Shown here in pieces: positions 1,164 through 26,400 of a stretch of 35,925 nt of DNA. Origin of the DNA: a virus; IMG/VR virus record IMGVR_UViG_3300017788_002263, positions 1 through 35,925 of that record. The stretch is one strand, 5' to 3'. The first letter of the stretch is position 1, and the number at the start of each line of letters is the position of its first letter. The notes under the pieces were generated by a model. That model was not told the origin of the DNA and ran no database searches. It saw only the letters and a list, made by a program, of their open reading frames with translations. A program made the translations under genes and the position numbers.

Positions 1164-1549
1164 CAGGGTATCCCCACCAGCTTGCGAAGCCCCCAAAGAA
1201 TCGGGCCGCGAGCCGCGAAAATCAAAACCCCAATAAATAGACCCCTCCATATCCAAAGCTCCTTAAGTGCCTTTCTTTGCTTCTGCTTCCAGTAATCGGC
1301 CTTGCCTTGGAGCGTCGAAATCTCTTTTGCGTACTGATCGACAAGCTTCGTGTTGTTGGAGCATGCCTGCTCGGCTGCCGCAAGCTGTTCCTTGGCCTTT
1401 TTGATTGCGGCCGAAACATTCCCAGAGGATGCCCTTTCTGCTTCTTCTAAATAGACCCATGTCCTGTCAAAAGATGGATTCTTAATGTCGGTGGTGGAGC
1501 ACGAGGAAAGCCCTAAAGCGAAAGCGAGAAATGCAAAAACTATTTTCAT
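1160..1549 (-). CDS. Unimolecular spanin-like lipoprotein
   Basis: The 129-residue protein starts with a lipoprotein signal peptide (MKIVFAFLAFALGLSSC). The lipobox is LSSC, so Cys17 would be the lipidated residue anchored in the outer membrane. Residues about 33-95 are Ala/Glu/Lys-rich and predicted to be a coiled coil spanning the periplasm. A C-terminal membrane span (WIWRGLFIGVLIFAARGPIL, about 100-119) is followed by a basic tail. Lipid anchor, periplasmic rod and C-terminal transmembrane segment are the known architecture of one-piece spanins such as phage T1 gp11, which fuse the outer and inner membranes in the last step of lysis. ATG 1549 overlaps the preceding stop as ATGA; ATG 1555 is an alternative that adds two residues. 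Neither start has a strong ribosome binding site. Confidence 0.7.
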   Translation of the reverse strand: MKIVFAFLAFALGLSSCSTTDIKNPSFDRTWVYLEEAERASSGNVSAAIKKAKEQLAAAEQACSNNTKLVDQYAKEISTLQGKADYWKQKQRKALKELWIWRGLFIGVLIFAARGPILWGLRKLVGIPW

Positions 1550-2028
1550 GCGCATGAAACCGACGGGGCTGATCCCGCTGGCAGACCCCCTCCGGCAAGC
1601 GACCCTCCGCTGGAACCGGTATCTTCGTTAAGAATCGTGAAAACCCTTGCGTTTCTTGCATTGTCTTGGGTTATTGCCTTTGAGGAATTAGACTTGGATG
1701 ATTGCGAGGTTTCGCTTTGGCTCTTTATTCCGGATCGGCTCCCTGACTCCGAGCTTGAAGAAACCTCGTTTTCATTGCCTTGCAAAGAATCAGTGGTTAC
1801 ATCGGTCCCGTTGTCATTGATGGCGTCGGAGTCCGAGCTTAGCCGCGAGAGGACCTGATGACCCGTAATGACCTGAATTTCAAATTCTACAAATTCCGGA
1901 AGATCTACCATCATCCCAGCTGCTGGGTTCTGCTGGTTGTTTGATCTTGCAGTGGCAATCCCGCGCCTGACTTCGCGCAGGGTATCGCGGATCACCACGT
2001 CCAGATCGGTGGCAGCCGCTACACTCAT
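1546..2028 (-). CDS. Ser-rich virion-associated protein candidate (paralogue A)
   Basis: This is a 160-residue protein of unknown family. Residues 1-60 form an ordered part containing REVRRGIATAR and then NPAAGMMVDLPEFVEFEIQV. Residues about 62-120 are low complexity, dominated by Ser, Asn, Asp and Glu. The C-terminus is Gly/Ser-rich and ends SVSCA. The same order, with conserved R-R-G-x-A-x-A-R, N-P-A-x-x-M-M-V-D-L-P-E and F-E-I, is found in the gene at 2325-2822, so the two are paralogues. ATG 2028 overlaps the preceding stop as ATGA. The gene lies between connector-like genes and the lysis cassette, where phages often place late virion or host-interaction genes. Function is unknown. The Ser-rich tract is a possible O-glycosylation substrate given the glycosyltransferase in the window, which is speculation. 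Confidence 0.8.
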   Translation of the reverse strand: MSVAAATDLDVVIRDTLREVRRGIATARSNNQQNPAAGMMVDLPEFVEFEIQVITGHQVLSRLSSDSDAINDNGTDVTTDSLQGNENEVSSSSESGSRSGIKSQSETSQSSKSNSSKAITQDNARNARVFTILNEDTGSSGGSLAGGGLPAGSAPSVSCA

Positions 2029-2315
2029 GGATCACCCGGAAACTGTACAACCACAGGAACCCGGAACCGAATCACGCATCCGATGTCATCCTTTTCTGTC
2101 TGAATTTTTGACCCGCTCTGGCTTGAGGATCGGATAACCGAAGATGATCTTGACGAAGAACTTGAGGAAGACTTTGAATTGTTTGTGGTCCCATTCGAAC
2201 TTCCGGTGTCGCTCTGGGTCGAACTTCCTGTTGCGTTTGAATTCCCGGTGTCGGTCCGGCAATTCGCCTCATTGGTTATACTCTGATTAGCTGTGTCAAC
2301 TGCTTGAAAGGCCAT
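2025..2315 (-). CDS. Ser-rich protein with a C-terminal beta-strand tail
   Basis: The 96-residue protein starts MAFQAVDTANQSITNEANC. A very Ser/Thr/Asn-rich tract follows at residues 24-70, including seven consecutive Ser. It ends with a charged and hydrophobic segment (EKDDIGCVIRFRVPVVVQF). It is flanked by the two paralogous Ser-rich proteins and may share only the compositional tract with them. The start is well supported: AGGAG lies 6 bases before ATG 2315 and overlaps the end of the upstream gene. I do not recognise a family. Composition and clustering suggest a surface-exposed flexible linker or fibre, but nothing in the sequence proves a virion location. Confidence 0.75.
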   Translation of the reverse strand: MAFQAVDTANQSITNEANCRTDTGNSNATGSSTQSDTGSSNGTTNNSKSSSSSSSRSSSVIRSSSQSGSKIQTEKDDIGCVIRFRVPVVVQFPGDP

Positions 2316-2324
2316 AATTTACTC

Positions 2325-2822
2325 CTAGCAGGCCGTTGCCCCTGCCGGCACGGTTAACGCACCCATCGCAATCGGGGCACCGGTTGCCCCGGTTTCGTCT
2401 TCGAAGGAGGCAATCTGCCTTCCCCCGCCAGCAGCATTCGCTCGGGTCCCCGCACTTAAGTCCAGGTCTGAATTGCTTTGTGAGTTGGACGACGACTGCG
2501 TTGCCGAACTACTTTCAGAAGAGGAACCTGAAGCTATTAAGGTTTCGCTGTCAAACTCGGAGCCGGCCTGAGATTCCCCTTGCGATTGGGTGCCCGTGTT
2601 CGACGTGGATATGATTCTAGAGAACTCGTTGGCTTGGTAAGACAAAATTGCGTTAATCTCAAAATCAATTCCCTCGGGAAGATCCACCATCATATTTGTC
2701 GCGGGGTTGCTCTGGCTGTCTTGTCTGGCCATGGCGCATCCGCGCCGAATCTTTGAGAGAATCGTATTGATGTCGTTGGCAAGGCGGTTTTGGTCGCCAT
2801 AAGTCAGGGGCATGACGACCAT
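2325..2822 (-). CDS. Ser-rich virion-associated protein candidate (paralogue B)
   Basis: This 165-residue protein is homologous over its whole length to the product of 1546-2028. The shared ordered block is KIRRGCAMAR (about 24-33), NPATNMMVDLPEGIDFEI (39-56) and a following helix. Residues 72-122 are a Ser/Gln/Asn/Thr tract. The C-terminus (EDETGATGAP, then LTVPAGATAC) resembles the paralogue's Gly-rich end and, like it, has a Cys at or next to the last position. ATG 2822 overlaps the preceding stop as TGATG; ATG 2813 is an alternative start. The function is not recognised. Conservation of both ends with divergence of the Ser-rich middle suggests that the middle is a variable exposed linker. 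Confidence 0.8.
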   Translation of the reverse strand: MVVMPLTYGDQNRLANDINTILSKIRRGCAMARQDSQSNPATNMMVDLPEGIDFEINAILSYQANEFSRIISTSNTGTQSQGESQAGSEFDSETLIASGSSSESSSATQSSSNSQSNSDLDLSAGTRANAAGGGRQIASFEDETGATGAPIAMGALTVPAGATAC

Positions 2823-3685: not shown

Positions 3686-3903
3686 TGGCCGTGCCTCATG
3701 GTGAAGATGTTGACCACCGCGCTTCCAATCAGGCCAGCGATAGCTCCCAATATGCCGCCCATGGCGGCGATAACCCCACGGATATGCTCAAGGTGATTTA
3801 CCTTCTTCTGCATATCGGCAAGCACATCCTTGTTGGATTCGGCGAGCGTCTCAAGCCGGACAACCCTGGCGTGGATGTCGTTCAGTAAGTCGTGTTTTGT
3901 CAT
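3682..3903 (-). CDS. XhlA-like small protein: coiled coil plus membrane anchor
   Basis: From ATG 3903 the product is 73 residues. Residues 1-50 form an amphipathic coiled coil (HDLLNDIHARVVRLETL and ADMQKKVNHLEHI). Residues 52-68 are a Gly/Ala/Ile-rich hydrophobic span (VIAAMGGILGAIAGLIG). The C-terminus is NIFTMRHGQ. This matches the haemolysin XhlA family layout, in which a short cytoplasmic coiled coil precedes one membrane span. XhlA acts with holins in some phages but is also found among structural genes. A frame opens upstream at 3936, but ATG 3903 overlaps the previous stop as ATGA and is the better choice. It lies apart from the lysis cassette, so it could instead be a small tail or membrane-contact protein. 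Confidence 0.65.
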   Translation of the reverse strand: MTKHDLLNDIHARVVRLETLAESNKDVLADMQKKVNHLEHIRGVIAAMGGILGAIAGLIGSAVVNIFTMRHGQ

Positions 3904-4232
3904 GCGATAGCCCCGGTAAATCCAATAAATGTCCACCAGCCAACAACATAAGTATTGGTAGTGCCTGATGTTACGGCTTCCGTTGTGTCAAAATATGTCC
4001 CAGAACTTCCTGAAGTTAGAAATTGTGATGCGTATGTGCTTGAATATGTTGCAGTCAGGGTTTTGTTAAACGTGGTCGCTCCTGCCGGGATGGTGTAGGA
4101 GGACACGCCAAGCGGAACAAAAGACGAAGACGCATTATACCCGCCAGCTATCCCGCTTGGGTTGACGGACGGGGGGACACCCGCAAGTATGTCTGAAACT
4201 TTGTTATTATTTGGCATGATGACTTGTGGCAT
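3900..4232 (-). CDS. Hypothetical Ser/Thr-rich structural protein
   Basis: This is a 110-residue protein without a recognised family. It starts MPQVIMPNNNKVSDILAGVPP. It continues as Ser/Thr/Tyr/Gly-rich sequence likely to form beta strands (SSYTIPAGATTFNKTLTATY) and ends with a hydrophobic YVVGWWTFIGFTGAIA. The start is well defined, because AAGGAAAGGA lies 4 bases before ATG 4232. The gene sits between two connector candidates, and its Ser/Thr content resembles other proteins in this cluster. A minor head or neck decoration protein is a reasonable guess, no more. Confidence 0.65.
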   Translation of the reverse strand: MPQVIMPNNNKVSDILAGVPPSVNPSGIAGGYNASSSFVPLGVSSYTIPAGATTFNKTLTATYSSTYASQFLTSGSSGTYFDTTEAVTSGTTNTYVVGWWTFIGFTGAIA

Positions 4233-7691: not shown

Positions 7692-8282
7692 ATGGAAAAG
7701 AATTGGGTTGCGAGGCTACAGGGCGAGCTAAGAAAAAGCAGGGAGCGCCCGGGTGACTCGGGATTTGTAAAGCCAGGGATTAATTACGGAAGCGTAGCCG
7801 GCTCATCTGCAAAATTCTACGGGCAGGGGATTCTCAACATAAAAAAAGCAAAATCCTCTAATGCTGCAGTTCCGCTTCTTGTCACCATTGGCCCCAGTGA
7901 TACGCTTCTTCTTCAAACCGGCGGGCTAGTAAATAACATTCCAGTCGCAACCATTTCGGGGACATTCGCAAACAATTCATTCGTGTATATTTCTGTCGCG
8001 TCATCTGCCGGAATTGTCCAGAGTGCGTCTGCCGCAACCGGCTCCCCAAGTTTTGTGCAAACCGCAAGCCAGAACTACCCTCCAACAAGCCTGAATATTC
8101 CAATCTACAAAATGGTTGAAATTCCCGGAGTAGGGGGCGCGCCTAGCATAAAAAAGCTTTTACGCCTGCTTGGAGCAAACAATATCACCATTCAGGCGCA
8201 ACCAGCTCAATGGGTTTGGAGTCCTCCCGACGGGTGCGGAGCAGTTACAGAAATATCGTACGTTTGGTCCGTGTTTTCATGA
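7692..8282 (+). CDS. Putative tail or surface protein, first gene of the plus-strand island
   Basis: The 196-residue protein begins MEKNWVARLQGELRKSRERP, a basic helical segment. It continues as Ser/Ala/Val/Thr-rich sequence with alternating hydrophobic residues likely to be beta strands (VPLLVTIGPSDTLLLQTGG, ATISGTFANNSFVYISVAS). It ends with WVWSPPDGCGAVTEISYVWS. No family is recognised. Its stop overlaps the next start as ATGA, so the two are co-translated. The island reads against all neighbouring genes and looks richer in A+T, which suggests a separately acquired, exchangeable cassette. The start has no strong Shine-Dalgarno; ATG 7692 is the first ATG giving the full frame. Confidence 0.75.
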   Translation: MEKNWVARLQGELRKSRERPGDSGFVKPGINYGSVAGSSAKFYGQGILNIKKAKSSNAAVPLLVTIGPSDTLLLQTGGLVNNIPVATISGTFANNSFVYISVASSAGIVQSASAATGSPSFVQTASQNYPPTSLNIPIYKMVEIPGVGGAPSIKKLLRLLGANNITIQAQPAQWVWSPPDGCGAVTEISYVWSVFS

Positions 8283-10246
8283 TTTTTCTTCTTAACAGAT
8301 TTACGGAGATTATTGAGGACGGGCTTCAATACTCTGTTGGTATCATGGGTACGTCCTACGGCAGCTCAAGTAGCCTTGCAGAAAACAGCTCCGGAGTTTA
8401 TGACTGCACGGGGGGGGCAGGGGCGGTGAACTCATACATAGCGGTGAACCGTGTAACTGGATGCCCCGATGGTGGCACAACCATAATGAATGGCTTTGCC
8501 TCCAATGAATACTATTTTGCGTGCGCTCCTCCTGAAAGGACTTCCACCGAAGAAAGCCTTTTCAGCGTGACTGCCGGTTCGGGCAAAAACAGAAGCACTG
8601 GATTTTTAGCCTCGGAATCATATGCAGATGGTTCAATTACCCTGATTAACACTAAAACAACAACGGCAGACACGACCGGCTCATGCTGCAGTGATTACAA
8701 ATCAGCCAGAAGCACTTACACGACGGACGCAAAGTACACCGTTGGGGTTTATTCCCGAAGTCGCACGGAATTAACGTACGGAGACGGCTGCAATCCATAT
8801 CCAGTCGCATCCTCAAAAATATACAATAAGTGCTGCTTCCCGCGTGTCGGCATTATTGTGGATTTGACTAAAAACACATCGACCTATGTCACGCACTTTT
8901 TCTACCAAACCCTGCAATACGACAGAACAAAGCCTGCAAAATTTGACTATATCATGACAGGTGGAGATGTGCATCCCGGGACTATAGCGGGCCTGACGGG
9001 AACCAAATACTCTCATGAGTCAGTAAAAATCACACAATTAGATGGATTCCTTGATTCATTTATTCCCGGTGTACGCTCTTCCTCATTTTCGTCGACTGCT
9101 TCCAATACCGCTATGTACAAAAGGCCTCAAAGGAAATCATCTACCACGTTTCAAGCCATCGCCTCGGCGACGCTTAGTAACGCGTACTACACAACTCAGA
9201 CTTCTTACGCCCCGCTGGATGTCGGGTCATACACAACAATCGCCGAAATGGGTTTCATGACGCCAATCCCGGCTATAAAAAGCTACAAAACTTCTGGCGA
9301 GGATTTCTTTATTGGATCAGGTGCAACGGTTCGCAATTCGTTTTACGAAGATAACTTTTTTTCAGTATATAAGTATGTTGGTAATTCCAGCGGGTATACT
9401 GACAATGGAGTGAATGGGGAAGCCAACGCAGATACGTTCGAATCTTCTGGTGCGTCCGAGTCGAGGGATAAGCCTACCGCTTATATGGGGATTGGCCGAT
9501 CCTGGTTTAACCTTGGAAACGGGATTACATGGGAACGAACGACCCAGGGGCATCTTTTTGGTTGCCTTTACGGAAATGTTTTTATTACAGGAATTCCGAG
9601 TCCCATGATCTTTTGCACGGAAATAGGAACCGGCCAAAGCGCGATCAAAAGCGTGATGCAGGCAAATCTTGGCGTCGAGGTTGGGCAGCTAACAGATCAG
9701 TGCCAAATTGCAACTGGGAACGTTAGCTATACTGTTTTTAACACAACCTTCACCCAAAGCTCTGCGAAGGGCACCTATTTTTCCCATAATTATGCCGCCA
9801 CCTGGAATGGGTCATCAACCTCCTATGTGGCATCTGGATTACTCTCAAATAACACCTCGTTTACCTTTTCCTCCAGTGAGTCCGGATCCTATCTCTACCC
9901 AATCGTGGACAGCACCAACGAGCCGGTAATCGTGCCGCCGAAAGCATCCGTAACAATTGGTCCTGGATATGTTTCCTCCTATTTCGACTCCGCAGGAAAG
10001 ACACTCACCGCGTCGTCAAAATTTATTTCTCCAGTGGCTTCCTTTCTTGCTGACGGAGGTGCTTTTGCTGGAAAAGACTTTTGTGTGGGATTTGCAGCCA
10101 GCGGGTATGTTGAAAGCCCAGTTGGGGAAGGTCAGGCCTTTTCCGATTGTGGATGGCTTGGTGATACCGGAAACATCTCCGACGAAAAAAGAGACTATCA
10201 ATCCCTTGCGTTGCGACCGGGCATGAAAAAGATGGAGTGTTTGTGA
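8279..10246 (+). CDS. Large Ser/Thr/Tyr-rich protein, candidate tail spike or receptor-binding protein
   Basis: From ATG 8279 (ATGA overlap) the protein has 655 residues. An earlier ATG at 8210 would overlap the previous gene by 73 bases and is less likely. It is rich in Ser, Thr, Tyr and Gly, with many short predicted strands and about 20 Cys residues, including Cys-Cys pairs in GSCCSDYKSARSTY and KCCFPRVGIIVDL. Examples of its repetitive style are SSSFSSTASNTAMY and TSFTFSSSESGSYLYP. I recognise no enzymatic motif. Size, composition and the adjoining small partner fit a tail spike or fibre. The Cys content is unusual for a cytoplasmically assembled phage protein and could mean metal binding or late disulfides. 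It may also be a substrate for the neighbouring modifying enzymes. Confidence 0.7.
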   Translation: MIFLLNRFTEIIEDGLQYSVGIMGTSYGSSSSLAENSSGVYDCTGGAGAVNSYIAVNRVTGCPDGGTTIMNGFASNEYYFACAPPERTSTEESLFSVTAGSGKNRSTGFLASESYADGSITLINTKTTTADTTGSCCSDYKSARSTYTTDAKYTVGVYSRSRTELTYGDGCNPYPVASSKIYNKCCFPRVGIIVDLTKNTSTYVTHFFYQTLQYDRTKPAKFDYIMTGGDVHPGTIAGLTGTKYSHESVKITQLDGFLDSFIPGVRSSSFSSTASNTAMYKRPQRKSSTTFQAIASATLSNAYYTTQTSYAPLDVGSYTTIAEMGFMTPIPAIKSYKTSGEDFFIGSGATVRNSFYEDNFFSVYKYVGNSSGYTDNGVNGEANADTFESSGASESRDKPTAYMGIGRSWFNLGNGITWERTTQGHLFGCLYGNVFITGIPSPMIFCTEIGTGQSAIKSVMQANLGVEVGQLTDQCQIATGNVSYTVFNTTFTQSSAKGTYFSHNYAATWNGSSTSYVASGLLSNNTSFTFSSSESGSYLYPIVDSTNEPVIVPPKASVTIGPGYVSSYFDSAGKTLTASSKFISPVASFLADGGAFAGKDFCVGFAASGYVESPVGEGQAFSDCGWLGDTGNISDEKRDYQSLALRPGMKKMECL

Positions 10247-10764
10247 TATTTCAGTTTTTGGACTCCAGCACATGGGCCTCAAGATGTTTGTATAAGGACC
10301 TGGGCTTTATTCATATTCCAAGAACTGGAGGTACTTACCTATCCAAGAAAATGCTTTTGGGTATTTTTGACCCACTGATGTCGAGAAGTTTTGCCGCTTG
10401 GCATAAAAACCCGTCTGATGTGAGACACGAAAGAAGGGCATGGTTCACGATTGTTCGGAACCCATACGAAAGAATTGCCTCAGAAATGTCGGCTCTCAGG
10501 AAAACCGCAAACGACCTATCGCTGATGAGTCTCCCCGAGGATGGACATTTCTGTCTTCAGGTATCCCTGTCCAGACACGCCGATATTCTTATACGTCACG
10601 AAAATCTCCCCTCTGAAATGAACGAAATGCTTGCACGCCTCAATCTCCCGGCAATTGATTTTTCAGACTGGAAGCCAAAGAAAAGGAATGTTGAAGAAAG
10701 TGTAAAAAAAATCATTCGCTCCCTGTATTCCGAAGACTTTGAAGGGCTTGGGTATCTCCCTTGA
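10243..10764 (+). CDS. Short sulfotransferase (PAPS-dependent, sulfotransferase family 2-like)
   Basis: The 173-residue protein has the two cofactor signatures of PAPS-dependent sulfotransferases. The 5'-phosphosulfate loop is FIHIPRTGGTYLSKKML (PRTGGT at 26-31). The 3'-phosphate motif is FTIVRNPYERIASEM (RNPYER at 72-77). A late IRHENLPSEMNEML corresponds to the family's 'E-[DN]-L' helix, and YSEDFEGLGY at 162-171 is the common 'Y-x-x-D-F-E-x-x-G-Y' ending. The protein is shorter than most cellular relatives, so the acceptor-binding part is minimal. I prefer GTG 10243, which overlaps the previous stop as GTGA and follows GATGGAG; GTG 10237 is also possible. It should move sulfate from PAPS to a sugar or tyrosine hydroxyl. 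The acceptor is unknown, with Ser/Thr/Tyr-rich neighbours or their glycans as candidates. Confidence 0.8.
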   Translation: MIFQFLDSSTWASRCLYKDLGFIHIPRTGGTYLSKKMLLGIFDPLMSRSFAAWHKNPSDVRHERRAWFTIVRNPYERIASEMSALRKTANDLSLMSLPEDGHFCLQVSLSRHADILIRHENLPSEMNEMLARLNLPAIDFSDWKPKKRNVEESVKKIIRSLYSEDFEGLGYLP

Positions 10765-11267
10765 AATCCAGTTTTACAAGCTGCCTCATAACGTACTATG
10801 AGCTGGAAACCACCGGAACAAGGGTTGAGGATACTTGGCTCACGGGATCGACGATTACGGACTCCTGGTCGACCCTGACAAAGCTTCATAGCGCAATAGA
10901 CTCAGCCACGTCTTTTCTTACGGAATCCTATTCAATTAGCAGCCAGTATGCCTCCGCATACCTAACCGGAACCTTTGCCTATACCTCTTCCATCTCTGGA
11001 ATATCAACCAACACAACTGTCGAAACCACCCTGTATTCGGGTACGGATGAATCGGATTCATACACGGACACAACTGAAACCTCATCGACCACGGACAACC
11101 TCACGGCTTCCGTTTCCGGGTCAACGACCAGCACGACCACAACCTCCGGCACTGACTCAACTACGACTTATACCTCGGAGATTGACACAACCGTAACGGC
11201 CCAAAACATTCTCTATACTTACTCCTTCCTCTCGGGCACAAGGGGCGTGCTGTACTTGAATTGGTAG
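10761..11267 (+). CDS. Mucin-like Ser/Thr-rich protein
   Basis: This 168-residue protein starts at TTG 10761, which overlaps the sulfotransferase stop as TTGA. More than half of the residues from about 60 to 150 are Ser or Thr (for example SGSTTSTTTTSGTDSTTTY). Both ends are more ordered: SSFTSCLITYYELE at the start and NILYTYSFLSGTRGVLYLNW at the end. No family is recognised. The last 49 bases overlap the end of the convergent glycosyltransferase gene. The composition resembles heavily O-glycosylated linkers, and its place between a sulfotransferase and a glycosyltransferase is suggestive. No motif proves modification. Confidence 0.7.
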   Translation: MKSSFTSCLITYYELETTGTRVEDTWLTGSTITDSWSTLTKLHSAIDSATSFLTESYSISSQYASAYLTGTFAYTSSISGISTNTTVETTLYSGTDESDSYTDTTETSSTTDNLTASVSGSTTSTTTTSGTDSTTTYTSEIDTTVTAQNILYTYSFLSGTRGVLYLNW

Positions 11268-12274
11268 GACTGGTAATTCCGCTTCCTAATTCTGATATGA
11301 CCGGATGTTTCTTCGCCATTCGGAACAAAGAATGGCTCCCACATGATAAACCCATCTCCTTCCGGTTTGACATGAATTCCGGGGGTTGAGACAAGACATC
11401 CAATCCTTTTTCCGGCCGGGTGCCATTTATTCCATACCAAATAAAGGTCCTGCGTGCCCATCCCTTCGTAGCCACAGAAGTCGGTAATTCTCATTACATC
11501 TCTTCCCCACATGGTGCACCCGAGTCCGCACCAATCGGTGGGCAGAACCGCCCCAAGGCAAGCCGCGCCAGGGTACGCAGCATCCAGCCACCCCCGTTTC
11601 CTCCACTTTTTGGAATTAAGCGAAAACACATTTCCCTTTGGTGGGCATTTTTTGATTTCCTCGCGCAATGCACCCAGCCTCTCCAGTATCTCCTTGGGGA
11701 TTTCACCGGTTTTTTCATGTTTGCTAATTTCCTCTCGCGTCCCCTGCAGATCCTTGAAAAGCTTTTTCGGTAGATTCCTTTCTGATTCTTCAAAGTCCTC
11801 GCAAATATGGTTTCTGGGCGTCCCGCGGCCGCACAGAAATGATCCGTTGAAGTAGGTTGCAGCCGCCACGTCAAATCGGTGAGACTCCATTGGGCATTCC
11901 AGTAGCCATTTTAGGCCACGATAAGAGTCGGGGTGAATAATGACGTCTGATTCCACGGAAAAGTAAATATCTGCATCATTGCGGATAGCCTCGTCCATGC
12001 AGGCCTGCTGAAGGCCGGCAATCAAGACCTGCGACTGCTCCTTGTATTTTTTTCTACTTTCTTGCTCAACCACGCCAGTTTCAATCACCTTTGTCTTAAG
12101 GCCAAACGATTCGGAAACCTTGACTGCCTCGGACACTGTCTCGGCTTTATCGGTGGCAATGATCCAGATGAACTCACCCCCGCACCCCCGAATGCTTCTG
12201 GCGATTGCAGCCGCGCAGTCCGGCATGGCGTACGCGTAGCTTTTGGTGGCGGCCGTAAGAACGGCTGTTTTCAC
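11219..12274 (-). CDS. GT-A type glycosyltransferase
   Basis: The 351-residue protein has a nucleotide-sugar-binding N-terminus (MKTAVLTAATKSYAYAMPDC, then FIWIIATDKAETVSEAVKV). The acidic metal-binding motif is at 108-110 (YFSVESDVIIHPD, a DxD variant). A late GYEGMGTQDLYLVW (about 265-280) corresponds to the 'G-x-E/Q-D' acceptor and catalytic segment of GT2-like enzymes. Residues about 155-215 are a Lys/Glu-rich helical insertion. A His-containing GIHVKPEGDGF near the end could contribute to metal or phosphate binding. It starts at GTG 12274, five bases after the portal stop, with no separate Shine-Dalgarno, so it is probably coupled to portal expression. Its 3' end overlaps the convergent plus-strand gene by 49 bases. 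The likely role is glycosylation of virion proteins or host surface glycans; the substrate is unknown. Confidence 0.75.
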   Translation of the reverse strand: MKTAVLTAATKSYAYAMPDCAAAIARSIRGCGGEFIWIIATDKAETVSEAVKVSESFGLKTKVIETGVVEQESRKKYKEQSQVLIAGLQQACMDEAIRNDADIYFSVESDVIIHPDSYRGLKWLLECPMESHRFDVAAATYFNGSFLCGRGTPRNHICEDFEESERNLPKKLFKDLQGTREEISKHEKTGEIPKEILERLGALREEIKKCPPKGNVFSLNSKKWRKRGWLDAAYPGAACLGAVLPTDWCGLGCTMWGRDVMRITDFCGYEGMGTQDLYLVWNKWHPAGKRIGCLVSTPGIHVKPEGDGFIMWEPFFVPNGEETSGHIRIRKRNYQSYQFKYSTPLVPERKE

Positions 12275-14480: not shown

Positions 14481-17400
14481 CTACCTAGAAGCTTTTTCTT
14501 GGGAAGCCTTATATTCCCGTCTGTGCCGCGCGGCTACCACCGCCTGCTTGGCCTCACGATAGAACCCAGAAATCTTGCGTTGAATGACATCCTTCCTGTC
14601 CTCCGAGACAAAGCCCTCGAGGTCGGCCTTGGACAGCACTCCGGGCTGGCTGGAATTCCCGTATAGGTATCCTTTGATTTTGGGCGCGGCCAGCTTCAGC
14701 ACCATGTCGTACTCATCGTTGGTTAGGGACACCCGCTTGCGGAGGTATGGGTCATCAAAGAACCGGTCAGGGCGTGAGAGATCCGGACTCCACACCTTGT
14801 CTGGGTGCTGCTGGTTGTAGTTATCGACAAACTTCTCAAAGTCGGTCTTTCCGTAAACCACTCCCCCTCGGCCGGGAAGTAGCCGGGTGATGGATCTCGT
14901 AACTGGCCCCGCGCCCTCGTATGGAGTCGGGTTAGGGATCTTCATTCCCTCAAAGGTTCTTCGGTCCGGTATGCCAAGCTCGTTCCCAAAGGCCGGGAAG
15001 ATGGAGAACAAGATGGCGTCCATACTCAGAGGCTCTGGGTTGTAAACGTCCTTTTCGTACTCCGGAACACCGCCAAGGGGCTGCTTAAACAGGTTGGGCA
15101 CCAGAATTGCGGAAAGCTTGTCTCTGAGAACCCTTTGCCATCCCACTCCCTGCCCGGGGAACAAGCTGATCAGGTCACGCCATTGCTTGCCGTAGGTTCT
15201 GGTGGCGGGTGCAAGGAAGTAATCCTTGAGGAAGTTAACTGCGGCGCCTGTCGCCAGATCCGGCGATTTGACGCCCTCCCTTAATGAGCGGGAGACGTTG
15301 ACGCTGCCAGAAAGCGCAGTCGCCAAGGGTTCTACTCGGCTGTAATCTACTGAATAATCAGGCACATCCGGATAACCAAAGTTCCTTGGTCGAATCAAAA
15401 TCTTAAACGGAGAGTTCCCGAATCGGGTCGTTCGCTGCCCTCCCGGGGACAAGGGATCCGGCGTTCCGGTGATAAGGAGCCACTTCTTGTCGTCATCATC
15501 ACCGCCCTCGCCTAGACTGTGAAGCAAGGCGGCAAAAACCATCGTACCGATAGAAAGGCTGGCCATTCTTTCGATGATGTCGTCGTACTCCTTGATGGGG
15601 GCATACCTTGTCCTCTTCCCGTCCACCTCGGTTGTTTTTGTGCTGTCCGCAAACCGGAACCCAAGATTCACCACGGCCGGGAGCGTGTAGGATAAACCCT
15701 CTCGGTAGATGTTGAATGGCGATTTGATCAGAACAAAGAATGACTGCATTAGGCGCACAATCCCCCTGAATGGCAAGGTCGTGGCGGCTGCTACCAGGTT
15801 GTCGGACTCCATCCGCGTGGCGAGGGAATCCAGCTGGGTATTGAGCTGTGCAAGTAGAGTCATGGCTCTCCCGCCGGCATCACCCACTGATTTAATCTTC
15901 TGGTCTTCGGGTTCTAGGTCTTGGGTAAAGGTTTCCTTGGTGGCGCGTCGGGCGGCAAGGATCCAGCTGGTGGATCCCACTCCCTCAATCTCCTTTTCAA
16001 TAAAGGAATCCAGTTCCGGCCCGTTTAGCCCGGCTGCTTTACCCAACCGATAGGCATGCGCCCCCACCGCGGTATAGGCTCGGAACATTTTTGAGAATTC
16101 GTCCATTGCCAAAAGGCCACGCAACGGCATCCGGACAATCCGTCCGAGCCTGCCGGGGATCCTGGTCCTCCGGGTTCTTCCGTATTTCTGTAGAAACGCC
16201 CCAAATCTGGTTTGCGGGTTATCGATGTCTTCCATGACTCCGGTGACGCTGTAATCGAAGAATCCGGCTTCCGTTGCCCACGCAAGCCTCGCCATGGTTG
16301 CAGCCCGCATCCAGGCCGGCGCGACGTGCTTCCAGATGTAACCGATTTCCCGACCAACTCCCTTGGCTAGTTCTGGGGTGGTCTTGTAGGCAATCCCCGG
16401 CCGGAATAACGGCACTTGCTGAGGGCTTAGCTGGTCAACTTCGACCTCCTGATGGAATCCGGCCTTGCCGAGGGCGTACACCATTATGCCCTGCATGCCG
16501 CGGTGTGCGCTGACGCTGATCGGTGAGAACGGCGTGGCAAAGACGTTGGCAAGCTGGGTGGCAACCCCGCTGAAGATGCTCGATACGTAAGACTCAAAGA
16601 TTGTTCCATCCAGCGTGGGTCGCCCGGCCTGAATCGCTCTAGCCAGAACCACGGCATGCTCTGGCTTGCGAAGGTCAAACAAGTTGCTTTTGCCTTTCCG
16701 GTCCTTTGATACCCATTGATACTCACCGCTTGGGGTAAGGGTCAGCCCAAGCATATTGTAAATTTCCTCCATCGCCTCCGCCTCGGATAGCGGCTGGTCG
16801 TCAGGGATCCGCTGGGCGAGGATCTGCCTCATCGAAGTGTCGTTTCTGGCGTTCTCAAGAAGTGCCTTGCGAAGCTGGTCGCGGGTCATCCCGGTCTGGG
16901 CAATCTGGCTAAATCTCCGCTTGGCTTCGGCCCGCATGGCATCCATGGCGGCCTTAATGTCGGCCAGCTTGATCTTGGTCTGCTTCGAGACGGAGACCGG
17001 ATCGTGCCCGATCATGATCAGCTCCACGGCCTCGCGCTCCCTTTGGGACAGGCGAACTTGGTCAAGCATCTGGGTGGCCGGCTTGCCGGTACGGATCTCG
17101 GAAAGCTCGGACTCCTTCATCAGCTGTTCCAGATTTGTGCCAAGCCCGGACAGAATGCGGTTCACCTCGGCAAGCCTCGTCTGGGCTTCTTGGGTCAACA
17201 CCTGTTCACGCGTGACCCTGTTCTGAAGGTCCGCGATCTGGTTCTGCATCGCCTCGATTTCGGCATTTCTCTGTTCCAGCACGGCCGAAAGATCCCGCAA
17301 GGCACGAGCGGAAGCCTCCGATTCGCCGGCCAACCCCTGCTGGGATTCGGTCAGGGCATTCCTTTGGCCGATTAAGTCCTCAAGCGTGGCCTGAAGGCTT

Positions 17401-20400
17401 CGGATGTCTTGGCGGGTCTGGGCTTCTGTTGGGTAATACTTCAGATCCATGACCCGGTTGCGTTCTGGCGCCACCATTACCGACATGAGGAATTCCGAGT
17501 TCCTTTGCGCCGGTGTCATCATTCTGTCGTAGCCCGCCCGCAAGGCCCGCCCCTGTTCGGAGCGAATCTCTCGGTACATGTACGCCATCGCGTACGCCTT
17601 ACCGAAGTCCGCGGCATTCCCGCTTACCAACGCGGTTTGGGCCAAGTCGGCCACCAGCTTCATCCCGGCCACGGTGGTTTCGGTGTTTAACGATTGCCCG
17701 GAAAGCACCGCCTCTTGGACGGCGAGCCTACCCTCTGGCGTGGAGAGCATCTGGGTGGCGGCTTCCTCAACTGCCGCATCCTGTTTGACCCCAAGCCCGC
17801 GCTCGAAACGCATCGCATCCATCGCATTGATGAGGTCGCGCTGTTCGGCGGTTTGACCAGGGTTTGCTAGGCTTCTGGCTTCGCCGCCGGTTTCGCCAGT
17901 CTTATAGACCCCGCCCATCGTTTTCATGCCGGACGGCTGAATCCGCAGCTTGCGATACATCTCCATCACTTCGGGGATGTCCTTACCAAGGTCGCCCAAC
18001 AGATCCGCCCGCATGGACATCAGTTCTTCTGGTGTCAGGGGCTTGGGCGTAAGGACCGGATTACCGGCCTCGTCGTAGTCAAGCCTTTGGGCAAACAGGC
18101 TGTCTTGCACCATGGATGGCCGCGTCTCTTGCTCCAAGGCGAACGGCTGAGTTGTCGGGTTCAGCGTGGTCTGGGTGGACATCAGCTGGCCCTCTGGCTG
18201 GTATCCGGACAGCTGGCTCTGGTTGGCGACAAACTCTAGTTGGCGAAGTCGCTTGTCGTTATAAGGCTGGCCGGCATCCCGCAGGGAGCGTAGTTGGTTT
18301 ATTTCGGAAAGTATTTTTCTGGCTCCGCTTGGCTGCTCTGGCCCAATCGTCTGGGCGTTAAGGGCAAACTCCATTTGGGGTGCGATATACTTGGCGGGCG
18401 GTGTCTCGATGACTGACGGCGTGAATGCTGTCGGGCGGTTCGGGGATCCAGCGTACCTCTCGGTGTCAAACAGGGCTTGCTGAACCCCGACACCCGGCAT
18501 CTTGTACTTGGTGGCAAACCTCTCAATTTCAGAGATGCGCTTACGCTGTTCGTCCGTTGGGGTCGGAATGTCGGTCAGTCTCTTGTATTCCAAGGCCATC
18601 GGGTTCTTTTCCCCGCCCTGCTCCGAAGGGGCTATGTCATCGCGGGTGTAGGACTTGACCACTTGCACCATCCCGCGGATCCCGGGCAACCCGGCCACGG
18701 CGGCCGATATGGTCTTGGTGACGGCCCTCCTTGGGTTGTCGATGCCCCTCGTGATCCAGCCTTCCCCATTCAGCCTTGGCCGGATTGAGTATGCCCCCTT
18801 GGTGGTAGTCACCAGGCCGCCCCTTGGCATGGCTTGAATGGTGTTCGTTACCTTGTCTTCTAGCTTGTCGCCGGTGATCCGCTGGGCAAATAGCTCGGCC
18901 TGGGTGGTCGGGGTTGCGGATCTGGACGCAGACTCCCTCTTTCCAACAAGGGTCTGATAGTCGGTGATCGGGATTGCCCCGATGTCCATAAGAGATCCCG
19001 CCGTAGTACCGACTAGGGTTCCGGCCGCCAGATTCCGAACCGCGCCCTTCATATCTCCCCGAAGGTTCAGAAGGTCTGATTCCAACTGGTCGAACCACTC
19101 CATCAGATAATCGTGAGGAGTTTTGGTTAGCCCCTTGGGGACATCCAGATTGGCTATCATGCCCAAGAACTCTGGCCTAGTCATGGTTTCAGCAGAAAAC
19201 TCATCCAAATTCTTGAAGCCATACAGTATCGACATGGCCTTCTTGGTCGGGTCTCCCACAACCCCAAGGATCCGCTGTTTGAATACCGGCTTATTTCCTC
19301 GAATCGTATAGGTCGAATATGCCGAAGGGGCTACGTTCTGTGTTCTCAGCTTTTCTAGCCCAGAAGGGGTAAGAATCAGCTTGCCGTCCGCTTCTACATC
19401 AAGCCCAACCAAGGATCCGGCTGGGCTGGACACAAAGAAGTCGTTGGTCGCCCCGTTCTTATTGACATAAGCATCCAAAGTGTCATTTGGCACTCCAGCC
19501 TTCCCCTGAAGCCCCAGTTCCGTGAAGTGGTCGTAGATCGCCTTTGAGTTGGATGCGTCGATATGGGCAGACATATACAGCCCGCCTGCGTAGCTCGCCC
19601 GGTGCATGGGCAGGGTGATGGAGTAAGAGGCGGTAAGACCTGACCCAAAGATGGCATTCTCAATCGGTTGCCCCGCATCGTCCTTCGCATACTTCAAGGC
19701 CCCCAGATAGGCCTTCACTAGGCTTTGCATTGCTGGGATCGCCCCTGTGGGGTTGTCGGCGTCCATGGGCTGCTTGCTGGCGTAAGTGGTTAGGGCATCG
19801 CGATACTTTGAGCCTGAAATCTCTTGGCCACGACGGGTTGGCCGGAAGTTATTGACGACCTCGCTGGCAATTAGCTGGGCAGTAAAGGCATGGATAAACT
19901 CATGCAGAATGACCCTTGGGCCAAGTTGCCCGGGGTGAAGCCGGATAATCCCCATTGTGAATGGGTCATACTTATCAGAGGCAAAATGCGAAGACTTTAT
20001 GGACTCATCAATCACCACATCAGTATTGGCGGCTCTGCCAAGGAACGATGCCGAATTGGCCTCAATACCACGGACCAACGCCTGTCCAAGCAGCCGGTAG
20101 TACGCCCTGATCGCCTTGTTGTTTTCATTTTCCGGTTCGGCAATTCCGCGGATCAGGCTGATGGCCGGTTGCGGGCCGGATTTCAGGGCCAGAATGGCTT
20201 GCCCCAGCTGGGTATTGGCAAACTGGCGCACCAGATTGGCGGTTTCCGCATCCCCCTCGGCATCGGTGGCGTAAATCCGCTGGGCATTGACGGACATGGG
20301 GCGAACCAACCCCGCCTCCATCGCCAGCCGCAACGCCTTGCTGACGGGCTTCTTGGGCTTGGAATTGGTGGCAAACAGGCTGTTGTCGCCGGCAAAATCC

Positions 20401-23400
20401 TGCAACGCCCGGAGCGCATCGTCGTACATCCGTTGAGCCATCTGCTTGTTGGGACGATCCTTGCCGTCCTCGCCCACGATTGGCGGTAATCCAAACTCGT
20501 CGGCAATCGCCTCGAAAGTCATCCCGCGGTTATGGGCCACAAACACTTGGGCCAAACGCGGATCTATGGTCTGGAATGCGGCCTCCATGTCGCTACGAAG
20601 TGCCTTGGTAAACTCAGTCTCCTCGATGGCCTTGGGCGTGATGATGTCCGGCCCCTCCTCCTCATTGACCGCCGTGGCTCTTCCGGCCAGCACTTCGGCC
20701 ACAGTTTCCTCATCCTCAAGGATCTGCATCCCTTGTTGTTCTGGCGGTTCGACCTCGAACTGGCCGAACTTCTGGTAAGAGGTGAGGACGCTGTTTTTGG
20801 CGGCCTCGACCATGTAGGAAAAAATCTTCTTGGGGATCCCGCCCTCGGGGGCTTCCGATCCCTCCATTTCGGCAAACTTGCCCGGGTCTTGCGTCCGCAT
20901 GACGGCAAGGGCTTTGATGGCCTTGAGAACCCCCGACACCGCCGAGTCTTCGACATACGAGGCATCCATATTGGGGAACATCCGCAGCACCATCCGCACG
21001 GCCGGCGATGGCCCGACGTTGCCATCCGAATCCAAGGTCTGCTGGGTGGCGATCCGGTAGTAGTTCCAAATCTCTGGCGTGATCTCGTCCCCGATCCGCT
21101 GGGCGTGGATCTGTACCGAGCGCGGGCCGGAATAGGCGTAGCCCTCGATAGCCGAACCAGCCGTATCGCTAATCCCAACCGACTTCGCAACCTCTGAGTA
21201 TGGCGTCCAGTTTGGGCCTTCATTGGCGGGCGCGGATTCCATGAAATTTGCCAAATTGTTCTGCGCCCGAAGAAGACCTGCAGAAGACTCGGATCCAAAT
21301 GGATATAAAACCGTATTTGGGCCAATCCGGCTCATCACGTACGCCTGGTTTAGCTCTGACATGGTGAGCGGCCCACGCACCTCTCCACCCTTATCTAGGT
21401 CAGCATAATAGTACCGCTGGGAGTTTTGGCTTGGCTTGCTTTGTGACCGCATCCGCTTGGCGATGTAGTTCCCAGCGTCAAATCCACCCATCTCCACCAC
21501 CACATACGGCCCCTCGGCCGACACCCTCGCGTTGGGAGCAATCTTTTCAAGCTCAGTCTTCACCCCATCCGGCACTCCGGACTCTTCCATCATCGCCATA
21601 TCCGCCAGCTGGTCTTCGACAAGACTGCTTACCGGGATGATGGACTTCAGGGAGTGGGGCGTTTCGATGGCTGTGGCTTCGGTGGTGGCGTATGACAGGG
21701 TAGCCCCGTCCGTGAACACCACTTCGGTTGCGTTATGGTGTCTGGTGATGGTGCTGTTGAGGTAATCCAAAACTTTCTCGGAATCGGAGCGTTGGATCGT
21801 CTCTTGAACGTTCAGAATATTGGAAAGCTTTCGGAGTTGGCTGAATTCGGCCTGATGGGGGACAACGATGCCGGTTGTCTCGCTCCCGTCCTGGTTGGTG
21901 AACCGCATGACGCGGTGGTTCAACTGCTGGCCGAACAGCCTCGTGGCCATGTCGGCCCCCACCAGAGGATTGCCAACAATGACGAAGTGATCCTGTTGCA
22001 TCGCCTTTTGACGCTCTCTGTCGTAAGCCTCGGATACGGCCTGATTCCGCCGGCGATTGTTCATCTTGTTTACGAAGTCTTTTTGGCCTTCTTCCGTGGC
22101 CACCGCTCCTTCTGCCGTCATGGCGTCGATGTCCTCGGTTACGGCCAAGGCTTCGGCAAATGCGTCAATGACCTCTTTCTCGGTTTGGGCGTTCTCCGTC
22201 TTTTCGGATACGTAGGAAAGGATCTCGCGCGTACGTACCGGCGACATCTCGATGATTGTGTTCCCGTCGTAATAGAGACTATTTAGCGTCTTGCCGTCGG
22301 AGAACTTGCGCTTCACCCGGAAGAATCCCGGCCGGTATCCCGCCCGATCCATGGCAAACGACATATACTTTTCACGTAGTCTGAACGGATGGTTCTCCCA
22401 GGCCTTGGCGGCCGCATAGGATTCGGTTTGCCTGAAAGTGCGTAAAAGCGCGGCCTCGGCATCCAGCCCGCCAACCGCGCCGTCCTCCAGCAGGGGCATC
22501 TCTACCCCAAGCTCATTCTGTTCCAGCGGGTTGTTGTTAAACGCCGCCCGGGCTGAGGCCAGCCGTGATAGCGGATTGGCCGACAGAGGAACCGGCATCA
22601 GGTGATTGAACCCTGCGCTCTGGATCAGCATTCGCTGGGAAGCAACCACGTGGGGGTATTTCAGGTTGAGTCTCAACCCTGAAACAAATACCGGCACTTG
22701 GGTATCGTTGATATGATACCAGTAGCTTCCGCCCACTTTCTCGGCCGCATCCGCCACGGCCGCTTGCGCCACCGCCATCTTGCGGGTGATGGCCTGGATA
22801 AGGGAACTCTTGGCCTTCGGGTCAAGGCGGGATCTGGCGGTGATGTAATTTACCCTGTCTTGGAGATACTTTTCGGCCGATTCGTTGTACTTCTGCACCA
22901 GTTGGGCCGTGTCGGCCTTCACCCTATCAATGTCCCTGACCAGCTGCTCAGAGGTCGGCGGCGGGGTCGGGTTGGTGAATCTGTACCGGCGTAGCTGGGT
23001 CGGTTGGGCGGTTCCGATGTCCGGCTCACCCTCCTTGCGTGGGGCGTAAGGGGCCATCCCGGGCATGTCGTCCACCAGCACGGCCTTGTAGTCCATCTTT
23101 TCGGACGTCAGGTTGTAGCGTCCGGCCATCTTCTCGGTTTCTACGATCTCGTTGTATTCATCCCGTACTTGCTCGGAAATTTCAGAGTAGATGTCGAGCG
23201 GCATGATGATGAGCATGTGTTCAAACCTTCGGAACACGTCGCCGTTGCCGGCTCCCTTCATCAAATTCGCCCGGATCTCCTCCTCGTTGGATCCTGGGAA
23301 ATACTCGTTATGACGGCTCTGGAACTCTTGGCGGAAGGTTTCGTCCCTTGCCAACACATTCGCCATCGCAAGGTCGCCGTAGGCATTGTGCATGTCCTCG

Positions 23401-26400
23401 CCAAAGGTTTCCGACATATCCAGCCGCTGCCCTCCGGTGCTTGAGGCTCCGAGGCGGGACATCTTCTTGGCCGTCAGGGCCATGATCCGTTTCTCGGCCG
23501 GCAACTCCTCGGCATAGGCCATATAAAGGTGAGGGGCGGTCAGCTGTCCGGTCCGGTTCACGCGGAAAGCCACCTGCACGGTGTCCACCACGTTGGGGGA
23601 TGGCTGCAAAAGGAAGAACACCCGGTCTTTTTGTGACGAGAACTTGGGTGAGTTATGGGCGTTGATTCCGGTGGATCCCGAGCGGGACACGGCAATCACG
23701 TTTATGTCGTCCATGTTGTTGAACATGGAAAGCGAGGCCATGCGGTCCTGGTCGAGGTCGGTCCTTTTCTCCCTTGTTCCATCCGGCATCACGGTTGCCG
23801 AGCGTCCGGAAATCTCCACGCTGGGGATCTGCACCGATTCCAACTGCTGACGCAGGCTGTCCATTGGGGAAATTCCCAGCCTCCCCAGAACATCCCTTGA
23901 GGATTCGATCATGCTCTTGGCGTCCGCAATCTGTTGAAGAACTCGATCTGCTTCCGCCATCGCGCCCGGGTACTCCTCTTGGGTGCGGTTCAGATCCAGC
24001 CTTTGCCGGAAAAGAGTTGTCTGCCTGCCCTTGGGGCCAACCTTGGCCGTGATGGTCACGTACTTCAGCTTGTCGGTGTAGCGGGCGAGGGCGTCGGCAA
24101 ACGAGGCGTTCTTGGGGTCAGTTTCTAGTGAAACATCGTCCAGCAACTCCTGTACGGCCGCCTCGCCGGTGGCATCGGAAGCCACAAACACCTTCTTGCC
24201 CTGGTCGACCAAGGTTTTGATCTGCTTGGAGATTTCAGGAATCTTTGAGGATAAGACCATTAAATTGGCAATATTGTGGAACTGGGACTTCATCGGATAG
24301 GGATCCACCTTCACCGTCAGGGTCTCTGCCAGTTCTGGCTTGTCCTTGACTAGTTCATTGGCTTTCGCTTTCGCCAGAACAAGCAACGCACCCTTCAGCT
24401 GTTTCATAAACGGCCCGGCTTGGACTTGCTTCAATTCGCCGGCGATTTCATTGGCCGTGTTATTGACCTCGGCAATTTGCGGTCCGGTGCGAAGTGCCAA
24501 AGGAGTGAACGGAACAGGCTTGCCATCGTGGGTAAGACCGCGCTGATAGCGGATATATTCGCCAGCCGAGACAAGGCCTCGGTTCATCAGCTCTAACAGG
24601 GGGTTGGCAAACTTCTTGAGTAGCTGGTTCAGCCGGCGCACAGACGGAATGGCCCGATTGACCGATGTGAATGGGAAATACAACCGCATCGCCTCAAGGT
24701 TTTTGATGGCTGTTCCGCTTGAGAACGCCACGCCCTTGGCTTTCTTGAGGATCCCGCGGGCGACATTGGACGACAGCGAGTCGCCGGTTCCCTTGTGGGC
24801 CTCGTCAATGATAAAGACGGCGTTGGGGGCGAGGGCATTAAGCACAGGGTTCACGTCTTTGAGTCGCGCCTGCTCCCAGGTGGTCATTACCATCGTCTTC
24901 CCGGCGGGCAGCTTCTTGCTGGAAATAATGGAATCAAATTGCGACTTGGGATTCTTGCCCTTGTTGGTCAAAACATTCCCATCACCCATCACAGACTCAA
25001 AGTCCTGGTCGGTGATAAACGGATCCATCTTAAAGCCGAGATCGCGGAAGTCATCCATTAGGGTCGGATACAGCGTCCGCGAGTTGGCCGTGAAAAAGAT
25101 CGGGGTTTGACCACGCAGATGGGCGGCGTAAAGCAGGGCCGCACAGACTCGCCCCTTTCCAATCCCCATCTCGTGACCAATGATGTTGGCCTTGCCTGAA
25201 TCCATGCGATCCAGGGCAGCCGCGATTGTCTCGACTTGCTCCTTGTTGAATCTGGACCCGGCCTTGGGGTTTACGACCTTGTAAAGCTCGGACGGGTTGG
25301 AGAACCCAAGCGCGTTGGACACGTAGCTCTCGAGGCCGCCACGCTCACGATCAATTCTCTCAAGGTTTCTGCGGATCTCGTCCGCAATCCCGACAGGAGC
25401 AAATGTTTTTAGGCTTACTCCGCTGCCCTGAATGACCGGAACCCAAGGAACCTGGGTTTCTAGCCCGTCGCCTAGAGTTCGTTCAGCGTCATTGACGCCA
25501 GCAGTTCGCCCAGCTTCGACTCCCGGTCCTCTCCTTTGGAGCGTGCGAATAGCGCCAAGATTTGGTTGTGCCCCTCCACCGCTCCGCACGCCTGCCGGAA
25601 CAGCATTGTCAGCCACTCCTTGGTTCTCTCCGGATCCTCCGTCAGGTCGTTGATCCACGGATCCTGGTACAGGGCGTCCGCGTCCGTCTTCCACATTCTG
25701 AAGCTGTCCGGGTTGTCCCGCTGCCACTTCACCAGCCGGGGGAACGCCTCCTCCGCTGCCTGTTCGCTGTATTCCTTCACTTGCTCCGGGTTGAGTTCCT
25801 TCTTCACGATTAGAGTCTATCCCTCCTTCTTGGTTGTCGTCAACTCGCTGGGCCATAAGCTCCTGCGGGTCAATTGTTTGTGCTTTAATGTCTGGCATTT
25901 GGTCAAGTTGGTTGACCTTTGCTGTGTCGGTTGCCCATCTTTCCCACGAATCAAGCTCTGCCTGTAAATCCGTGATTTTCTGGGCAACGATTGTTTCGGC
26001 GTTTTCCCCGGTTCCAACCGGGATCCCGCTTTCAGCCAGTATTTTCGCCCTCTGCCCGCTGCTCAGCTTCTTATAGTTTACAAACGCGCTGAGCTGTTCC
26101 TTGAGGTCTTTTTGTTTTTTAGCAGCTTTTTTTGCCCTTTGCTTCATTAGCTCAAAGGCAGAGTCGTCACCCCCAAAAAGATCCCCCTGCGATTCAGAGG
26201 GCCCGCGGTCAGCAAATTTCGCAACCATCCCAGCAATAAAGTTTTTAAGCTCCGCTTGGGTTGTCCTTTCAGAGGTAATCAGGGCCAAGGCTTGCCGCTG
26301 AATCCCCTCGTTTACCGTTCCCGCAGACTTGGGAGCACCCGAAGCGATAATAAATGCCATCATGGGGTCAACCTTCCCCATCAAGACTCCGCTATAAATA

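Follow-up and report, generated by a model that had tools for sequence, protein, structure and literature searches.

Does a phage that encodes a sulfotransferase-like protein and a glycosyltransferase (GT) beside Ser/Thr-rich proteins use these enzymes to modify its own virion? The question is raised by a locus in the IMG/VR virus record IMGVR_UViG_3300017788_002263, a linear stretch of 35,925 bp that was analysed at full length and is called the window here. Our best reading is a mobile virion-protein glycosylation cassette, to which an optional, recently acquired sulfation step may have been added.

The phage and its probably exchanged slot

The gene layout of the window is that of a podovirus, with an SU10-type portal and ORFs at the scaffold and major capsid positions. 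The major capsid protein shows weak similarity to Erwinia PEp14-type capsids, the phage relatives of the terminase large subunit are distant, and a giant protein of 5,632 aa is encoded. No near DNA relative was found among annotated phages, and the portal is encoded in ten IMG/VR loci with 66-95% identity. Promoter and terminator scans of the window gave results no better than shuffles. The original prediction described a sulfotransferase and a GT-A glycosyltransferase flanking a mostly Ser/Thr protein, with further Ser/Thr-rich proteins in the structural cluster, and this inventory was recovered (Table 1).

Table 1. Features of the window discussed in the text (S+T, serine plus threonine content)
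Feature	Position	Strand	Basis
ser160, Ser-rich protein, candidate acceptor	1546-2028	-	24% S+T
ser96, Ser-rich protein, candidate acceptor	2025-2315	-	34% S+T
ser165, Ser-rich structural-cluster protein, candidate acceptor	2325-2822	-	24% S+T
110-aa Ser/Thr-rich structural-cluster protein	3900-4232	-	29% S+T; homologues in L003, L013, L014
orf196, small conserved partner gene, first in the + strand operon	7692-8282	+	counterparts in sisters
orf656, hypervariable Ser/Thr/Tyr-rich, putative fibre or receptor-facing virion protein	8279-10246	+	ATGA overlap with orf196; 24% S+T
Sulfotransferase-like protein, 173 aa	10243-10764	+	PHROG 3347 match; PSB- and 3'-PB-type motifs
168-aa Ser/Thr-rich protein, convergent neighbour of the GT	10761-11267	+	46% S+T, reaching 70% in 40 aa
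GT-A glycosyltransferase, family without PHROG	11219-12274	-	family alignment; Pfam in relatives; AlphaFold2 fold

In this lineage the cassette is placed between portal and scaffold. DNA similarity to the sister records L003, L004 and L010 (73-79%) ends at about 7.65 kb and returns at 12.29 kb, short stretches within the GT gene excepted. Since this similarity is lost across the slot, the GT is only about 50% identical to its sister counterparts while the portal is 92-94% identical, and the GC content is low (49% versus 57% in the flanks), the sequences are most simply read as a replacement of the entire cassette as a block, together with its GT.

The four + strand genes of the slot are chained by successive 4-nt overlaps (ATGA, GTGA, TTGA). 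The sulfotransferase gene starts with the GTG at 10243 inside the second of these, preceded by a GGAG ribosome site (10234-10237), and its stop forms the third with the 168-aa ORF. The first gene, orf196, is 32-35% identical to genes at the same place in the sisters L003, L004, L010, L013 and L014, and in most GT loci an ORF of 170-240 aa precedes the Ser/Thr-rich ORF. No homologue of orf656 was detectable in the sisters, where the slot holds an unrelated single ORF of 877-943 aa. We considered whether orf656 and the 168-aa ORF are a split form of that ORF; the matches were compositional only, with no detectable relation. The 168-aa ORF lies between both enzymes, on the strand of the sulfotransferase, and overlaps the convergent GT by 49 nt. 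Its codon score is near that of genuine genes but is matched by one antisense frame, so that it is likely, not proven, to be coding.

Against an S+T background of 12.2% in reference genes, the binomial test gave P values of 5e-27 for the 168-aa ORF and 4e-17 for orf656, and the Ser/Thr-rich genes of the window lie far above the background of its other virion genes. In the sisters, ser165 has a conserved N-terminus and a variable Ser/Thr linker. The N-terminal part of ser160 resembles ser165, both matching the same sister ORFs, and ser96 reaches 40-46% S+T in the sisters and 60-61% in the L006/L008 group. The Ser-rich trio (1546-2822) was also found in the L006-L009 group, which is without this GT family. 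The 458-aa slot protein of that group, tried as a possible GT relative, showed no relation by hhalign in a comparison that included only three sequences.

A glycosyltransferase family with a hypervariable partner

Taken alone, the GT of the window matches neither Pfam nor PHROG, and neither PHROGs nor a set of 50,697 phage records contains its family. A profile scan detected the family at 42 viral loci and at five in bacterial assemblies, the viral carriers being about 40 uncultivated phage records. At E<=0.1, 15 of the 37 family members, not including that of the window, match Glyco_tranf_2_3 (PF13641), the best with 5.9e-6. All 37 aligned members share ExD (E108/D110) and GTQD (273-276); the motifs TD (41-42), GTQDL, DWCGxGCT and HxK are invariant as well. 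Judged by position, ExD would be the acidic DxD-type metal/nucleotide motif and GTQD the late acidic catalytic motif.

An AlphaFold2 model built from the alignment of the 37 relatives reached a pLDDT of 76; an earlier model from six sequences (pLDDT 49.5) was too poor for use. Compared with the PDB, the model gave Z>=8 with 891 of 998 aligned chains (top Z 16.7 over 171 residues, rmsd 2.6), and its best Foldseek match was the collagen galactosyltransferase COLGALT1 (PDB 9evj, E=3.9e-7). The presumed acceptor region is in part weakly modelled, at residues 144-160 and 223-246. By its family and modelled fold only, we assign the product as a GT-A-fold glycosyltransferase.

A Ser/Thr-rich ORF directly adjoins the GT in all 39 readable viral loci, 38 of which were scored and one (L060) read by eye. 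This ORF measures 436-943 aa in the relatives; in the window it is the 168-aa ORF, with orf656 beyond the sulfotransferase. Of the ORFs next to the GT, the one richer in Ser/Thr was taken as the partner, a slight bias toward the result. In the 38 scored loci it averages 26% S+T, whereas the median of the other ORFs, taken locus by locus, has a mean of 13.5%; it ranks first within its locus in 21 cases and no lower than third in 35. A high Ser/Thr content is common in fibre proteins, and in some loci (18-21% S+T in L003-L004 and L030-L036) the partner is only modestly above other fibre-like ORFs. Neither a sequon nor a shared acceptor motif emerged.

GTs that are 93-96% identical often have partners with no detectable similarity to each other (L048/L065, L041/L043, L056/L066, L040/L050). 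By this comparison the partner is hypervariable and evolves very fast. Moreover, loci of podo- and sipho-type phages, assigned from neighbouring genes (portal/scaffold versus tape-measure-like ORFs), are mixed in the GT tree, and its supported branches force at least five podo/sipho changes. On the evidence of the tree, the GT has moved between the two phage types at least five times, with a Ser/Thr-rich partner kept throughout.

Other sugar enzymes accompany the family. A cupin of the WbuC/FdtA/RmlC type occurs in 10 records and follows the GT directly in L030-L036; in the sisters it is encoded near a DUF3431 gene, a few kb outside the position that matches the left edge of the window. GT4 enzymes are found in 11 of 47 records, and in L040, L050, L052, L060 and L066 the GT4 start overlaps by 4 nt the stop of a gene with 45-54% S+T. 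Taken together, such neighbours suggest that protein glycosylation recurs as a theme in this phage group.

A sporadic sulfotransferase-like protein

The sulfotransferase-like protein matches PHROG 3347, 'Galactose-3-O-sulfotransferase', with E=7.6e-6, and Pfam Sulfotransfer_2 (PF03567) below threshold (E=0.006, 17.1 bits, curated cut-off 22). It has the 5'-PSB loop and 3'-PB motif by which PAPS-dependent sulfotransferases are broadly recognised, in the form of HIPRTGGT and RNPYERIAS (R-N-P-Y-x-R-x-x-S; R-x7-S). The only clear relative, 42-45% identical, is in L003, one of the 12 sister records. It keeps these motifs as HIPRTSGT and RNPYQRVAS and matches Sulfotransfer_2 with E=8.9e-4 and 19.9 bits over profile positions 76-252 of 252. 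In L003 the gene lies outside the slot, upstream of TerL and beside recombinase and fibre-like genes.

A single-sequence search of IMG/VR returned no homologue; with a two-member profile, the matches were limited to L003 and to a weak, partial one. No solved-structure relative was found by sequence. The 37 other viral records with the GT family were without a homologue, and Sulfotransfer_3 was absent from 43 records; these absences are provisional because many of the records are fragments. L070, a betaproteobacterial MAG contig with a GT cassette, has a Sulfotransfer_3 gene shortly after the cassette (28.5 bits, cut-off 27) that is not homologous to the sulfotransferase of the window.

The sulfotransferase is best seen, from its distribution, as an optional and recently acquired modifier. 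The idea of a fixed sulfo-glycosylation module was not supported by this survey. The proposed check on co-occurrence of the enzymes with Ser-rich genes came out positive for the GT; sister phages keep the GT and the Ser/Thr-rich genes without the sulfotransferase. Of the proposal that the phage both glycosylates and sulfates its surface proteins, with a charged, mucin-like coat as the supposed result, the first half gained from the constant pairing and the additional sugar enzymes, and the second was weakened by the sporadic sulfotransferase.

Proposed function and known systems

We consider it probable that the GT glycosylates a virion protein, within an exchangeable cassette that spans positions 7692-12274, and this is the best-supported function for the enzyme. 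The GT would be made late in infection and would use a nucleotide sugar as donor. Its acceptors would be the hypervariable Ser/Thr-rich neighbours, orf656 and the 168-aa protein, and possibly the Ser-rich trio too, and the glycan would most likely be O-linked on Ser/Thr. Glycosylation would take place in the host cytoplasm, ahead of assembly. In this phage the glycan may in addition be sulfated by the PAPS-type sulfotransferase, whose gene was inserted into the operon; elsewhere in the group it may be customised by the WbuC/FdtA-type cupin or by a GT4. That GT and sulfotransferase jointly build a sulfo-glycan is possible and much less certain than glycosylation by the GT. We hold with similar reserve, as a tentative and rather unlikely reading, that in a cassette mobile across morphotypes a dedicated GT-A enzyme glycosylates whichever hypervariable Ser/Thr-rich surface protein is its neighbour, with modifiers plugged in, so that this virion carries sulfated glycoproteins.

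The likelihoods of the alternatives overlap with that of virion glycosylation, because those on the sulfotransferase are compatible with glycosylation by the GT. Both enzymes might be unrelated morons in a recombination hot spot, with no joint function. We regard this as somewhat unlikely. In its favour, exchange clearly concentrates in the slot, whose GC is low, and the sulfotransferase is missing from nearly all relatives and located elsewhere in L003. Against it, the GT is placed non-randomly, always beside its partner, the sulfotransferase gene overlaps a Ser/Thr-rich gene by 4 nt on either side, and L070 gained an unrelated sulfotransferase near its own cassette. Another view is that, like TPST or RaxST, the sulfotransferase modifies tyrosines in the fibre-like protein and does so independently of the GT. 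The PSB loop has Lys in many sulfotransferases and Arg in the window protein, as in protein-tyrosine sulfotransferases. Moreover, Tyr makes up 7.1% of the 168-aa ORF and 6.3% of orf656, against a background of 2.8%. However, all slot proteins are enriched in Tyr (mean 6.3%), with or without a sulfotransferase, and the family matches lie on the Gal3ST/Sulfotransfer_2 side, which makes tyrosine sulfation improbable.

Two further readings take the modification away from the virion protein. The enzymes might alter the host surface (LPS or capsule), for example in superinfection exclusion or seroconversion, their position next to a fibre gene then reflecting co-selection with receptor specificity. 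Phage GTs that change the host serotype are known (PMC12619734) and the partner resembles a receptor-facing protein; yet the cassette lies within the virion structural cluster in both podo- and sipho-type phages, GT4 enzymes overlap Ser-rich genes, and a reading by eye of the neighbouring ORFs revealed no membrane-anchored partner of the Gtr kind. We therefore judge this distinctly unlikely. That the GT glycosylates phage DNA is very improbable: such phage enzymes exist, according to work cited in PMC12619734, but the fold neighbours of this GT are sugar, lipid and protein GT-A enzymes, its gene tracks a virion-cluster protein, and hydroxymethylation genes were not noticed in the window, which was read without a dedicated search.

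If glycosylation of the virion protein holds true, morphologically unrelated phages share a swappable protein-glycosylation unit acting on a fast-evolving surface protein, and a target is supplied for phage sulfotransferases, whose role has been stated to be unclear (PMC10580990). By dressing a variable, receptor-facing protein, such a glycan could influence how the phage adsorbs, how stable it is or how it is recognised. Sulfated glycoproteins on this virion, if real, would be the first case of a sulfated glycan on a phage virion. With its small size, the cassette lends itself to co-expression tests.

In the literature library that was searched, no paper joins phage, sulfotransferase, tail fiber and glycosyltransferase. 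The phage sulfotransferases of the Sulfotransfer_2/PHROG 3347 type, for example in Prochlorococcus phage P-SSM7, have the PAPS-binding motif pattern and a C-terminal region in common with the window protein, which is shorter and falls below the Pfam threshold. COLGALT1, a collagen hydroxylysine galactosyltransferase, shares the GT-A fold and has a protein acceptor, but with 12-13% identity and a different acceptor this fold match shows no function. In mycobacteriophages, phage GTs have been linked to glycans of capsid and tail proteins (Freeman et al. 2023, as cited in PMC12619734). Common to both is a phage-encoded GT, for which a virion protein is the probable target here; according to that account, which in its description of this system does not mention sulfation, capsid and tail-tube subunits carry the glycans in mycobacteriophages, whereas here the GT belongs to another, uncatalogued family with a hypervariable Ser/Thr-rich partner and mobility between phage types. 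Bacterial serine-rich repeat adhesins are Ser/Thr-rich surface proteins that are O-glycosylated by the neighbouring GtfA/GtfB and variable accessory GTs (PMC6973325, PMC5207161). They resemble the phage locus in the Ser/Thr-rich protein, the neighbouring GT genes and the variable accessory enzymes, but are cellular and secreted and use GtfA/GtfB, in contrast to a GT-A enzyme without a secretion system. Three things appear to be new here: an uncatalogued GT family, the fact that it is always paired with a hypervariable partner, and its transfer between phage types. Since virion glycosylation in mycobacteriophages and O-glycosylated Ser/Thr-rich adhesins in bacteria are already known, we regard the cassette as a variant of a known theme rather than a new kind of system.

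Glycosyltransferases and their Ser/Thr-rich neighbours

The GT-A glycosyltransferases of a podovirus-type and a siphovirus-type record (L041 and L043) are 96% identical as proteins, and the adjoining Ser/Thr-rich partner proteins are unrelated. A second couple of glycosyltransferase and Ser-rich protein exists within the same phage group: in five records, a GT4-type glycosyltransferase gene shares a 4-nt overlap with the stop of a gene encoding 45-54% Ser/Thr.

The three Ser-rich proteins of the window's structural cluster, found also in the related loci L006, L010, L015 and L021, have conserved ends and a highly variable linker composed of Ser/Thr/Asn/Gly. In the sisters, these linkers carry the repeats SGSNSGSN or TGTNTGTN, and Ser plus Thr reaches up to 60-61% in the Ser-rich proteins of the L006/L008 group.

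Coordinates of the features discussed (bare positions refer to the window)
Location	Feature
L041:6784-7845	GT-A gene, podovirus-type record
L043:9995-11050	GT-A gene, siphovirus-type record
L040:5844-7717	GT4/Ser-rich couple
L050:5856-7423	GT4/Ser-rich couple
L052:1-1598	GT4/Ser-rich couple
L060:343-2078	GT4/Ser-rich couple
L066:6242-7671	GT4/Ser-rich couple
1546-2822 (-)	Ser-rich trio
L007:10086-12067	slot without GT-A gene
L070:10338-11129	Sulfotransfer_3 gene
L021:4714-6157	three-gene stretch
14481-31379	giant protein

Slot content and other enzymes

In the related group without this glycosyltransferase (L006-L009), the slot, an exchangeable block, is occupied by two uncharacterised proteins, one of ~460 aa and one of 203 aa. 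The smaller protein contains a VDGD motif, and its C-terminus is rich in Cys. These may be different transferases. On L070, a phage-like contig from a betaproteobacterial MAG, a Sulfotransfer_3 gene lies a short way downstream of the GT cassette. The sister phage L021 carries consecutive cupin sugar isomerase-like, SET-domain and DUF3431 genes, in a stretch that would correspond to the region just beyond the window's left end.

The giant protein

The window also encodes a giant protein of 5,632 aa with a helicase-like region, which recalls the large polyvalent proteins of phages.
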